Origin: Deltaproteobacteria bacterium
GTDB taxonomy: Bacteria > Desulfobacterota > Syntrophorhabdia > Syntrophorhabdales > JANXAF01
Assembly: GCA_026417175.1 (NCBI GenBank)
Contig: JAOADT010000007.1
Location: 1-64,000 of the forward strand
DNA length: 64,000 bases
Direction: 5' to 3'
Made by a program: the position numbers and the translations under genes. Positions 824-8,529 of this stretch are shown here, piece after piece (positions within the stretch are counted from its first letter, which is position 1; every line of letters begins with the position of its first letter). Below the pieces are notes generated by a model that was not told where the DNA came from, made no database searches, and worked only from the letters and a program-made list of their open reading frames with translations.

Positions 824-1645
824 ATGAGCAAAGAATTCCACATTATAAGTAGCGGAGTGTCTCTTATCCTTAATGCCCAGAATAAAGGACTATTCTCAAA
901 TCTAAAAATCTCAGATGATTGTACATGGCAGAAAGTCTTAGAAGATCCAAAATCTGTGACGGAACTTACTGAATTTTTAAAATCTAATCCTATGAAAGAG
1001 TGTGCTGAACTTAACACTTTCCTACGGGCTGTAAAAGATAAAGACTTATCAAATATCGAAGTTTATTTATTTGGAACCAAAACGGCAGTGAATGAGTTGT
1101 GTAGGAGAGCTATTGAAAACGTTCTCAAACACTTGGGGTATAGAACTTACACTCCTTATGAAGTGAGTGGCTATTTTTGGGAAGCTAATTTTGATCCGTC
1201 GTATGCTACGGACGAATTTACAAATGGTATTTCCGAACTTTTGGATAGACTCATACACATAGCCAAAAGGAAAAAAGATGAAGGCTACACAGTGTATTTC
1301 AATGCAACAGGCGGTTTTAAAGCACATGTGATTGTGACCGCGCTTGCTGGCTTTCTCACGAATGGAAAGATTTACTACATGAACGAGGAATTCCAGGATA
1401 TTGTTTTTCTACCGCCCCTATTTTACCTTCCCAGGGGCAAGGAGATTGAGCTTTTACGCCAACTTTCCGACAAGAAACCACTTAGCGGGAAGGAATTCGA
1501 AGGCATAAGAGCCGCCTACGGAAGCGAACTCGAACGATTAGAGGTTTATGGCATTATCCAACTCGAGCATGATGATTTTGGACGTCCATTTCGAGTAAAA
1601 ATCACGAACAAAGGTGGATTGTTGGTGAAAGAGATTTTTTCATAG
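824..1645 (+). CDS. CARF-domain CRISPR-associated protein (Cas_APE2256 family) with C-terminal winged-helix-like region; Crn1-like ring nuclease or CARF regulator
   Basis: Motif YFNATGGFKAHVIVTALAGFL..GKIYYMNEEF typical of APE2256-type CARF domains; C-terminal ERLEVYGIIQ..DDFGRPFRVKITNKG winged-helix-like; ~600 bp from the array. Confidence 0.8.
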   Translation: MSKEFHIISSGVSLILNAQNKGLFSNLKISDDCTWQKVLEDPKSVTELTEFLKSNPMKECAELNTFLRAVKDKDLSNIEVYLFGTKTAVNELCRRAIENVLKHLGYRTYTPYEVSGYFWEANFDPSYATDEFTNGISELLDRLIHIAKRKKDEGYTVYFNATGGFKAHVIVTALAGFLTNGKIYYMNEEFQDIVFLPPLFYLPRGKEIELLRQLSDKKPLSGKEFEGIRAAYGSELERLEVYGIIQLEHDDFGRPFRVKITNKGGLLVKEIFS

Positions 1646-5074: not shown

Positions 5075-5195
5075 TTCTGAACCTCTTTCTTAGTGTGTTT
5101 TTAAAATTTATACGCTTTTTTTGCGTTTTTTTGCAATTTATGAACTTGGGCTCAGTGTTAAATAATGTTATGTGCGGAATAAAAACTCTGTTATA

Positions 5196-6149
5196 ATGGA
5201 AAAGATGAACATAAAATACGCAAAACTCGGTTTCTATATCAAGGCGGAAACAGAGCTTATCCTTCCACAGTATAAAGGCTCCACTTTAAGGGGGGGATTC
5301 GGCCAGGTTCTAAAAGACGTGGTATGCGCCATAAAAAAAGATTGCTCTGACTGCATCCTCAAATCAAGATGCGTATATAGCTATGTTTTTGAAACAGAAC
5401 CTTTAGGCTCAGCGGAGATCCTAAATATGTCCAAGTACGAAAGGATCCCTCATCCATTTATTTTGGAACCGCCTGAGGAAGAAAGGACTGTCTACCCAGA
5501 AGGAAGTAATTTGTCTTTCAACTTGATATTAATCGGGAACGCCGTCCAGTACTTTCCGTATTTCGTTTTTGCCTTTCTTGAGCTCGGAAGAAGGGGGATA
5601 GGGAGGAAAAAGGGCAAATACTCTATATTTCAAATCATGGATCTAAAAGACAGTAGAGTTGTTTTTACTGATGAACGGCAGACCCTAAGTGAGATTGAGC
5701 CCTCAGTGATTGAGATTCCAGATATCCCAATTAACGATAAGGAAATTAGAAGAGTGACTTTGAGCCTTAAAACACCGCTCAGACTAAAATTCAGCAGAGA
5801 TCTGGTAGTTAACTTAAAATTTCACATGCTTTTAAGAAACCTTCTACGAAGACTAACCCTGATATATTACTTTCACTGCGAACGGCAAAAACCTAAATGG
5901 GATACGAAAGCATTAATCCGTAAAGCAGAAAATGTGGTAACAATTACTTCTGATACTTCATGGTTTGACTGGGAGAGATATTCGTCCAGACAGAGCCTAA
6001 AATTGAAGATGGGCGGACTGATTGGAAACATCACCTTTGAAGGAGAGTTGAACTCATTTTTGCCGATCCTAAAGGCAGGCGAGATACTCCATGCAGGAAA
6101 AGGCACAAGTTTCGGCCTTGGAAGGTATGAGATAGTCGAAATCTCATAG
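5196..6149 (+). CDS. cas6: CRISPR pre-crRNA processing endoribonuclease, RAMP-type Cas6
   Basis: LPQYKGSTLRGGFGQVLKDVVC, Cys cluster CSDCILKSRC, C-terminal GLIGNITFEGELNSFLPILKAGEILHAGKGTSFGLGRYEI (Gly-rich RAMP loop). ATG choice 5172/5196/5205 uncertain. Confidence 0.9.
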   Translation: MEKMNIKYAKLGFYIKAETELILPQYKGSTLRGGFGQVLKDVVCAIKKDCSDCILKSRCVYSYVFETEPLGSAEILNMSKYERIPHPFILEPPEEERTVYPEGSNLSFNLILIGNAVQYFPYFVFAFLELGRRGIGRKKGKYSIFQIMDLKDSRVVFTDERQTLSEIEPSVIEIPDIPINDKEIRRVTLSLKTPLRLKFSRDLVVNLKFHMLLRNLLRRLTLIYYFHCERQKPKWDTKALIRKAENVVTITSDTSWFDWERYSSRQSLKLKMGGLIGNITFEGELNSFLPILKAGEILHAGKGTSFGLGRYEIVEIS

Positions 6150-6209: not shown

Positions 6210-6491
6210 ATGGGAAGAAAACTTTATGTTATTGCCTACGATGTAAGAGATGAGCAGAGACTTAATAAGGTTAGAGAATACTTAAAAAATTACTCAACTG
6301 GTGGGCAAAAGTCAGTGTACGAATGTTTTCTAACAGACGGAGAATTGCAGGAAGTTTTGAAAGAGCTAGCTCGACTTATAAGAGAGGATGAAGACAGGGT
6401 TCACGTATTCAGACTTGAAGGTCGTAGCAAGGTGCACACACTCGGAATAGCGCATCCCCCTAAAGATCCATCATACTTTTTCATAGGCTAA
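6210..6491 (+). CDS. cas2: CRISPR-associated Cas2
   Basis: 93 aa; YVIAYDVRDEQRLNKVREYLKNYSTGGQKSVYECFL..ELQEVLKELARLIREDEDRVHVFRL. Confidence 0.95.
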   Translation: MGRKLYVIAYDVRDEQRLNKVREYLKNYSTGGQKSVYECFLTDGELQEVLKELARLIREDEDRVHVFRLEGRSKVHTLGIAHPPKDPSYFFIG

Positions 6492-6495
6492 AACC

Positions 6496-7452
6496 TTGGG
6501 TACTTTGTACATAGACAAAAAAGGTGTTCTCGTGAAACTTGACGGAGGGGCTCTTGCCTTTTATGATAAAGGTGAGAAAACTGGAATTGTCCCTATTTCG
6601 CCTCTAAAATCTGTGGTTATTTCTTCTAACGTCATAATTGAAAGCTCAGTCCTTAAAGCCCTTGCAGATCATAACATAATGGTTGTCTTTCTGTCCGGAA
6701 AAAGAATGAGGTTCTCGGGCATCTTAAGGGGGAGAATTCATAAAAACGGTCTTCTTCGATTGAAACAGTATGAAAAGTCTCTTTCGTCATTTGCAATGGA
6801 AGTTGCGAGGGACATAGTTAGAAGGAAACTATTGGCACAGAAAGAATTTCTCGAGTCTTTAAAAACTGAGAGGCCAGACAAGATTCTCTTTTTAGACTCT
6901 TCTCTTAACACTTTGTCAAAAAATCTCGAGACAATTTCATCAGCTGAATCTTTTGAGAACATAAGGGGATTGGAAGGTAGTTCCTCTTCCGCTTACTTTT
7001 CCGCTTATACCCAGCTTTTCCCGCCATCACTGGATTTTAAAAAGAGAGTTAAAAGGCCTCCAGGTGATCCGGTAAACGCGATGCTATCCTTTCTTTATAT
7101 GCGAATCCATTATGAGATTTTGAGAGAAGTGGAAATGATAGGGTTTGATCCGACAATAGGGTTTTATCATCAGTTCGATTACGGAAGAGATTCTCTGGCG
7201 TGCGATATAGTTGAACTTTTTAGAACTGAGGTAGATAGGTTCGTGTACAAGATATTCAAAGAAAAGCATCTTTCCCTTAGGGACTTCGCAAAAGACGACG
7301 AGAGGCCAGGTGTCTACCTAAAAAAGCATGGTAGAAAAAAATTATTTCCACTTTACGAAGACTGGGTAGGGAATCTTCGTCCCCTTTTTAGAGAAGAGGT
7401 TAGAGTCCTCGCAAGGAAGGTAATGGATGGAGCGGACTTTGTATCTGAATGA
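6496..7452 (+). CDS. cas1: CRISPR-associated integrase Cas1 (canonical active-site motifs)
   Basis: IRGLEGSSSSAYF (Glu), DPVNAMLSFLYMRIHYEILREVEMIGFDPTIGFYH (His), SLACDIVELFRTEVDR (Asp). TTG start at 6496. Confidence 0.95.
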   Translation: MGTLYIDKKGVLVKLDGGALAFYDKGEKTGIVPISPLKSVVISSNVIIESSVLKALADHNIMVVFLSGKRMRFSGILRGRIHKNGLLRLKQYEKSLSSFAMEVARDIVRRKLLAQKEFLESLKTERPDKILFLDSSLNTLSKNLETISSAESFENIRGLEGSSSSAYFSAYTQLFPPSLDFKKRVKRPPGDPVNAMLSFLYMRIHYEILREVEMIGFDPTIGFYHQFDYGRDSLACDIVELFRTEVDRFVYKIFKEKHLSLRDFAKDDERPGVYLKKHGRKKLFPLYEDWVGNLRPLFREEVRVLARKVMDGADFVSE

Positions 7453-8257
7453 TAGCGGATCTTCCATTTCAGTCATGAGAGATGGACCATCATTATGGAT
7501 TGAAGAAAAAGGCGGTGCTGGAAGAAGAATACCTGTAAGATTTATAGATCTTGTCATATTAGTACAGAATGTGAAAATAGATGCCCAATCCTTAGCAGTT
7601 TTATCGGAAAATCAAGTTCCTGTCATTATCATGGATAGAAGTGGACAACGAAAAGCCTACGTTTTACCTTATGAGGAAAAGATTCCATTTCGCTACAGGG
7701 ATCAAAAGTTTATTTTGAGAAATGAAAGAAGCGAAGAAAGATATAGAAAATGGGCTGAGACAAAAAGAATGATCATAGGGATTAGCGCCCTAAAAAGGAT
7801 AGGGAAAGATAAACTTACACGATGTGAAGAGATAGGAGAAGGAAACTATTCGATTATCATGAAAGAACTGATTAGCTCCATGGGGATTGAAGAGGAAAAG
7901 TATATGATTGTAAAAAACACAGTGTGTTCTTTGTTCCATGGCATAATAGCAAAGAAATTACTTAGAGCAGGTTTCGACATACATCTCGGAGTGATCAACA
8001 GAAGAAAAAACTTTGGTCTTATTCTTGACGTTTCATATATTATGGACGGAGAGATAGATCTCCAGACGCTTCAGTTTTTTAAAACAGATGCGAAAAGGGA
8101 AATCGCATTTCATCATGTCTTTGGAAGGTGCGAATTGAAGCCCAATGTTATGAGATTTATAGCACACAGATTCGAAAACCGAAAAAAGACAATTGGACAG
8201 ATGGTAGACAACATAATAGATGAACTTTGTACGCTTATGAGGGAGATTAAAATGTGA
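7427..8257 (+). CDS. Divergent Cas1 paralogue (Cas1'), predicted altered active site
   Basis: Cas1-like beta-domain (SLWIEEKGGAGRRIPVRFIDLVILVQNVKIDAQSLAVLSENQVPVIIMDRSGQRKAYVLPY) and helical domain KNTVCSLFHGIIAKKLLRAGFDIHLGVINRRKNFGLILDVSYIMDGEID. Overlaps cas1 by 26 nt. Confidence 0.85.
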   Translation: MERTLYLNDSGSSISVMRDGPSLWIEEKGGAGRRIPVRFIDLVILVQNVKIDAQSLAVLSENQVPVIIMDRSGQRKAYVLPYEEKIPFRYRDQKFILRNERSEERYRKWAETKRMIIGISALKRIGKDKLTRCEEIGEGNYSIIMKELISSMGIEEEKYMIVKNTVCSLFHGIIAKKLLRAGFDIHLGVINRRKNFGLILDVSYIMDGEIDLQTLQFFKTDAKREIAFHHVFGRCELKPNVMRFIAHRFENRKKTIGQMVDNIIDELCTLMREIKM

Positions 8258-8529
8258 AAACACCTTATCTTGTCTGCTACGACATATCGGATGAAAGAAG
8301 ATTGACACGATTGTTCAACTATATGAAGGATATGGGTATACACCTTCAATACTCGGTCTTTTACTGTGTTCTCGACTGGGACGAACTTGTAAACCTCAAG
8401 ATGGAAATTAGTAGGATTATAAAAGACGAAGAAGATGATGTAAGAATATACCCATTACAAAAGGACTCCCTTGTTGCCCGTCTCGGTTGTGGTGACAGAA
8501 TTCCAGATAACGTGCAAATTTTTTTGTAA
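8254..8529 (+). CDS. Second CRISPR-associated Cas2 (Cas2')
   Basis: YLVCYDISDERRLTRLFNYMKDMGIHLQYSVFYCVLDWDELVNLKMEISRIIKDEEDDVRIYPL. GTG start overlaps cas1' stop (GTGA). Confidence 0.92.
   Translation: MKTPYLVCYDISDERRLTRLFNYMKDMGIHLQYSVFYCVLDWDELVNLKMEISRIIKDEEDDVRIYPLQKDSLVARLGCGDRIPDNVQIFL

Follow-up and report, generated by a model that had tools for sequence, protein, structure and literature searches.

A stretch of 64,000 nucleotides from a Deltaproteobacteria bacterium of the Syntrophorhabdales (hereafter the window) encodes a diverged second Cas1, here called Cas1', which probably serves, largely without catalysis of its own, as a dedicated subunit of a heteromeric spacer integrase (Cas1/Cas1'/Cas2) in a type III-A CRISPR system. 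That Cas1' is conserved although its site has decayed in many species suggests an integrase in which one type of Cas1 subunit works and the other is structural. To our knowledge, all known Cas1-Cas2 integrases use identical Cas1 subunits in two roles, which makes these roles hard to separate by mutation. If the proposal is true, having a separate gene for each role would allow one role of Cas1 to be altered while the other is left intact, and would reveal whether asymmetry between the subunits determines how spacers are oriented, a question of special weight in type III systems, which must target transcripts. A decayed active site, moreover, need not imply a decayed gene.

Gene layout, fold and proposed role of Cas1'

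In the window, cas1' directly follows a canonical cas1, and cas2a, cas2b, cas6 and a CRISPR array all lie nearby (Table 1). The start of cas1' falls within the final 26 nt of cas1, an overlap of the two genes that recurs in 26/27 loci, and its end overlaps cas2b by 4 nt. The two Cas2 proteins were told apart by HMM score.

Table 1. Coordinates of the CRISPR-associated features and of selected Cas1' codons in the window.
Feature	Position	Strand	Remarks
CRISPR array end at contig edge	33-216	+	three 36-nt repeats: 33-68, 107-142, 181-216
CARF (Cas_APE2256-type) type III CRISPR ancillary protein	824-1645	+	Pfam 7e-25; PADLOC CARF7 1.1e-39
cas6 (crRNA-processing endoribonuclease)	5172-6149	+	PADLOC Cas6 4.7e-103
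cas2a (Cas2 upstream of cas1)	6210-6491	+	Pfam 3.5e-18
cas1 (canonical partner)	6496-7452	+	318 aa; Pfam 3.4e-75; E160/H225/D237 intact
cas1' (diverged second Cas1)	7427-8257	+	276 aa, ATG start
H186 codon, DPHxG motif of Cas1'	7982-7984		
N191 codon, metal His column of Cas1'	7997-7999	+	
D201 codon, metal Asp column of Cas1'	8027-8029	+	
cas2b (second Cas2)	8254-8529	+	Pfam 5.8e-21

An earlier note, made from the letters of the window, had described Cas1' as a full-length Cas1 fold encoded without stop codons, and both parts of this description held. The reading frame is intact, with zero internal stops, and the predicted structure has the Cas1 fold over its full length: AF2, run on 27 orthologues, gave a model with a mean pLDDT of 90.5 and a pTM of 0.89, and VIA-align superposed this model on P. 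horikoshii Cas1 (4wj0) with a Z of 25.4 and an rmsd of 2.7 over 269 residues; 2yzs and 4xtk gave comparable values. At the sequence level its scores are modest. Cas1' scores 36.0 bits against Pfam Cas_Cas1 (PF01867; cut-off 22.3), mainly from its N-terminal domain, and 38.7 bits against NCBIfam TIGR00287 (cas1), under the cut-off of 71.7. A search of solved structures with the single Cas1' sequence gave zero matches at E<=10, unlike a search with the alignment profile, which reached them (TM1797 Cas1).

Compared with the canonical Cas1 integrase (PF01867; 4wj0, 4xtk, 2yzs), Cas1' shares the fold, the N-terminal beta domain, the metal Asp, the Cas2 neighbours and the array, but differs in its replaced metal His, its variable Glu column, the absence of the RPPxDPVN loop and its score under the TIGR00287 threshold. 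A diverged second Cas1 is a kind already catalogued in PADLOC, where model PDLC01185 is described as 'Cas1, diverged variant, second in the loci', and 25/27 Cas1' match this model at E<=0.01. Across 297 genomes of the phylum, the model scores best with the Cas1' of genome G265 (2.7e-16), which stands in a cas2-cas1-cas1'-cas2 module beside a 62-repeat array, whereas the Cas1' of the window matches weakly (E 1.9e-4), over the N-terminal half only, and scores higher with generic Cas1 models. Among open-licence papers, we found none that assigns the diverged second Cas1 a function, and none of relevance to loci with paired cas1 genes or with an inactive Cas1.

Known Cas1-Cas2 integrases carry four copies of one and the same Cas1 on a Cas2 dimer, and two of these copies perform the transesterification. 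In solved complexes, two Cas1 protomers are active and the other two wall the repeat channel (PMC12259127); for a type II system, a ruler function has been connected with the contact that a non-catalytic Cas1 makes with the repeat (PMC6895254). We propose that these catalytic and wall roles are divided between the paralogues Cas1 and Cas1'. Cas1 would keep the metal site and join the spacer ends to the repeat, while Cas1', as a specialised wall protomer, would dimerise with Cas1, hold the prespacer and the repeat DNA, and dock on Cas2b; the Cas2 of the complex would be Cas2b, usually together with Cas2a. The drift of the His and Glu columns and the loss of the RPPxDPVN loop would then be expected, because such a subunit would need no metal site. 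The Cas1-Cas1' heterodimer, its stoichiometry, the lack of catalysis by Cas1' and its role on DNA are what we infer here. Inactive protomers occur likewise in the Cas1-Cas2 hexamers of P. aeruginosa Cas1-2/3 (PMC12259127), the likeness lying in a Cas1 fold that serves as the proposed channel wall; there, however, active and inactive protomers come from one gene, whereas here the proposed inactive protomer has a gene of its own. A stronger version, in which the integrase is obligately heteromeric, catalysis and DNA scaffolding being distributed over two Cas1 and two Cas2 paralogues, with an asymmetry that could fix spacer orientation without Cas4, may also apply, although this extension is tentative and the balance of probability leans somewhat against it.

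Metal-site columns of Cas1' and their variation

The metal site was located by three alignments: a profile HMM against the TM1797 Cas1, hhalign against the partner Cas1 (E 2.3e-13), and a joint MAFFT alignment of 65 Cas1. The triad E160/H225/D237 is kept in 18/18 partner Cas1 orthologues. In all three alignments, N191 of the window's Cas1' corresponds to H225 of the partner, the metal His, and D201 to D237, the metal Asp, and in the AF2 models D201 and D237 are each residue five of the equivalent helix; the replacement of His by Asn and the retention of Asp, both read by eye in the earlier note, were thus confirmed. The complete Glu-His-Asp site of Cas1 was not found in Cas1' of the window, as the His is N191, the Asp is kept and the Glu column is variable.

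The tentative suggestion that the Glu is retained as E138 was not confirmed, because the alignments disagree on the equivalent of E160 and the candidate columns vary. Three glutamates lie near the proposed position (E134, E135, E138). The profile HMM and most rows of the joint MAFFT alignment place the E160 equivalent on the residue preceding the invariant Gly, hhalign places it on the R of 'FRE', three residues shifted, and the helix ends of the AF2 models favour E138, with E160 of Cas1 inside helix 153-172 and E138 of Cas1' opening helix 138-151; the placements by profile HMM, hhalign, joint MAFFT and helix positions differ within about one helical turn. Of the canonical Glu motif, RG.EG.....YF, Cas1' keeps the invariant Gly and a near-invariant Tyr, and with these two as anchors the position of the Glu falls on a variable residue. 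In 34 Cas1', the E138 column holds E 19, T 6, G 5, P 2, R 1 and N 1, and no candidate column carries a conserved Glu across the family. The shorter spacing to the His/Asn position, remarked on earlier, is real and is due to the missing loop that carries RPPxDPVNA, RPPxD being found in 0/27 Cas1' versus 18/18 partner Cas1 in the joint MAFFT alignment.

The His column is mixed. In the 33 reliably aligned Cas1' (G265, whose helical domain aligns poorly, is excluded from these counts), it holds H 20, D 4, N 3, Y 3, K 1, Q 1 and R 1, and the Asp column holds D 29 and E 4. A Cas1' tree built without the His column calls for a minimum of 8 switches between His and some other residue, and a distant clade combines His to Asp with Asp to Glu. 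The change can be recent, as L020, with Tyr, and L021, with His, share 87% identity in Cas1'. Asn was considered as the conserved state of Cas1' and rejected: the earlier note had looked to its conservation across orthologues, naming beforehand His in orthologues as evidence to the contrary, and His is what most members carry. With so many changes in a mixed column, the Asn of the window is one of several losses and not a trait of the family.

These columns bear directly on the alternative that Cas1' is still a catalytic integrase, acting in a different step (e.g., a second-site reaction) with its own Cas2b through a rewired metal site of Asp201, Asn191 or the His found there, a shifted Glu (e.g., E138) and perhaps the family-specific His186. 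The His of the DPHxG motif (H186 in the window) occurs in 30/34 aligned Cas1' and varies less than the column of the metal His. The near-invariant Asp201 and the His in 20/33, as read from the alignments, are the main facts that speak against a simple loss of catalysis, and the Glu in 19/34 at the E138 column, the constancy of H186, the position of Cas2b beside Cas1' and the separate cas1'-cas2b half in two genomes (G066, G261) all agree with a catalytic Cas1'. Under the E138 assignment, moreover, a complete triad would remain in roughly a third of members, which also speaks against the non-catalytic reading. However, the E138 column, the His column and the Asp do not vary jointly as a triad would: the Nitrospira proteins have the His but lack a Glu at the E138 column, the window shows the opposite, and the distant clade has neither. 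The RPPxDPVN loop, furthermore, is missing from all Cas1', and their catalytic region is poorly conserved. We therefore regard a catalytic Cas1' as rather unlikely. The reading of Cas1' as a largely non-catalytic subunit survives on the recurrent loss of His, the variable Glu column, the loss of the loop and the relaxed catalytic region.

CRISPR context and spacer acquisition

Another contig of the same genome, C17, carries a complete csm operon (cas10, csm2-5 and a CARF-HEPN protein), and the repeats at its edge are the same as those at the edge of the window; the two contigs are separate in the assembly. With Cas10/Csm1 and csm2-csm5 present beside matching repeats, the locus is of type III-A, and the adaptation module of the window most likely serves this system, which the assembly has split at the array. 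From locus to locus the repeats measure 36-37 nt and have in common a 3' part similar to AAGGGATTGCGAC. Beside modules whose Cas1' lacks the His, the spacers are about 34-37 nt long and all unique, at 41/41 (N), 75/75 (Y), and 45/45 and 43/43 (D). Spacers have therefore been acquired in those lineages, while the arrays are silent on which protein inserted them and when.

The window's own genome yielded no Cas4 above the curated cut-off, which accords with the view that Cas1' is an accessory factor that selects, trims or orients prespacers in the manner of Cas4, or restrains Cas1. An orientation factor would presumably be useful here, since type III crRNAs need one transcript sense, and Cas1' is a basic protein, with a mean net charge of +9.3 compared with +4.7 for Cas1. 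Nevertheless, it is folded as an integrase subunit along its whole length, and Cas2b is co-inherited with it in the loci examined, so that a purely accessory role appears distinctly improbable.

The genome also contains a second adaptation module (G000:C27; L058:4017-6782), consisting of a 922-aa protein that joins a reverse transcriptase to Cas1, with a cas2 of its own. The N-terminal part of this protein is probably Cas6-like, and a III-D-like Cas7 and a CARF protein adjoin it. A 136-aa frame elsewhere in the genome (G000:C57:3196-3468) holds an N-terminal fragment of Cas1.

Orthologues, selection and module order

Cas1' was found in 5/60 genomes of the search among relatives, the window's own genome not counted, and in 13/395 genomes of the phylum, own genome included, a few of these being weak matches. 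Within genome contigs it occurs at 26 loci, in Nitrospirota, Syntrophorhabdales and a few metagenome-assembled genomes with other labels, and plasmid searches with three Cas1' proteins as queries gave zero matches. The order cas2a-cas1-cas1'-cas2b is general across several phyla, often with cas6 alongside. An origin of Cas1' in place from its partner Cas1 was considered: in a joint tree, Cas1' stands on a long branch outside all sampled Cas1, a placement in which long-branch artefacts are likely.

Over ten orthologue pairs, dN/dS is 0.04-0.32 for Cas1' and 0.08-0.15 for the partner Cas1, values that are rough in several pairs owing to high dS and that describe pairs outside the window's own branch, its nearest orthologue being about 40% identical. 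Low values are found also where one member lacks the His (L020/L021), and where both lack it (L020/L022, L033/L034) Cas1' gives 0.08-0.17. Conservation within the protein is uneven: mean pairwise identity in the N-terminal domain is 0.51 for Cas1' versus 0.61 for Cas1, and in the catalytic region 0.33 versus 0.69, the pattern expected if a structural role stays and catalysis goes. Cas1 and Cas1' are each a single clade in the trees, the main groups of the two correspond, and the distances of the two proteins are correlated (r 0.91, Mantel p 1e-4). This match shows co-inheritance; like the gene overlap, it is expected of any operon partners, which limits the support that these observations lend to a joint complex.

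Two aberrant copies were observed. At L025 (2381-3243), the reading frames of Cas1' and Cas2b are shortened, and at G209:C101 (L065) there is an in-frame TAG close to the Cas1' start; gene loss or assembly errors are possible causes. That Cas1' is a functionless, degenerating copy of a duplicated cas1-cas2 pair would fit these two copies, the drifting metal ligands and the faster evolution of Cas1' (mean distance 0.63 versus 0.44 for Cas1), but is very improbable, as dN/dS is similar to that of Cas1 and below the value near 1 that the earlier note had associated with decay, the reading frame is intact in nearly all genomes of several phyla, and the motif RDGPS is invariant in the main clade. 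The earlier suggestion of a non-catalytic partner under selection is thus upheld in its altered site, its selection and its canonical neighbour, but not in Asn itself as the selected state.

The composition of the module varies. Five Nitrospira loci (L028, L029, L030, L031, L035), in which Cas1' retains the His, have the order cas1-cas1'-cas2b-cas6, with cas2a, an array and recognised effectors absent from the fetched flank, and apparently represent a stand-alone adaptation module; one Cas2 with two types of Cas1 therefore seems to be a workable set. In G066 and G261, other genes separate cas2a-cas1 from cas1'-cas2b. At L059 and L062 the two halves lie apart, with what look like two CARF genes between them at L059, and these split modules suggest that the arrangement originated through duplication of a cas1-cas2 pair.
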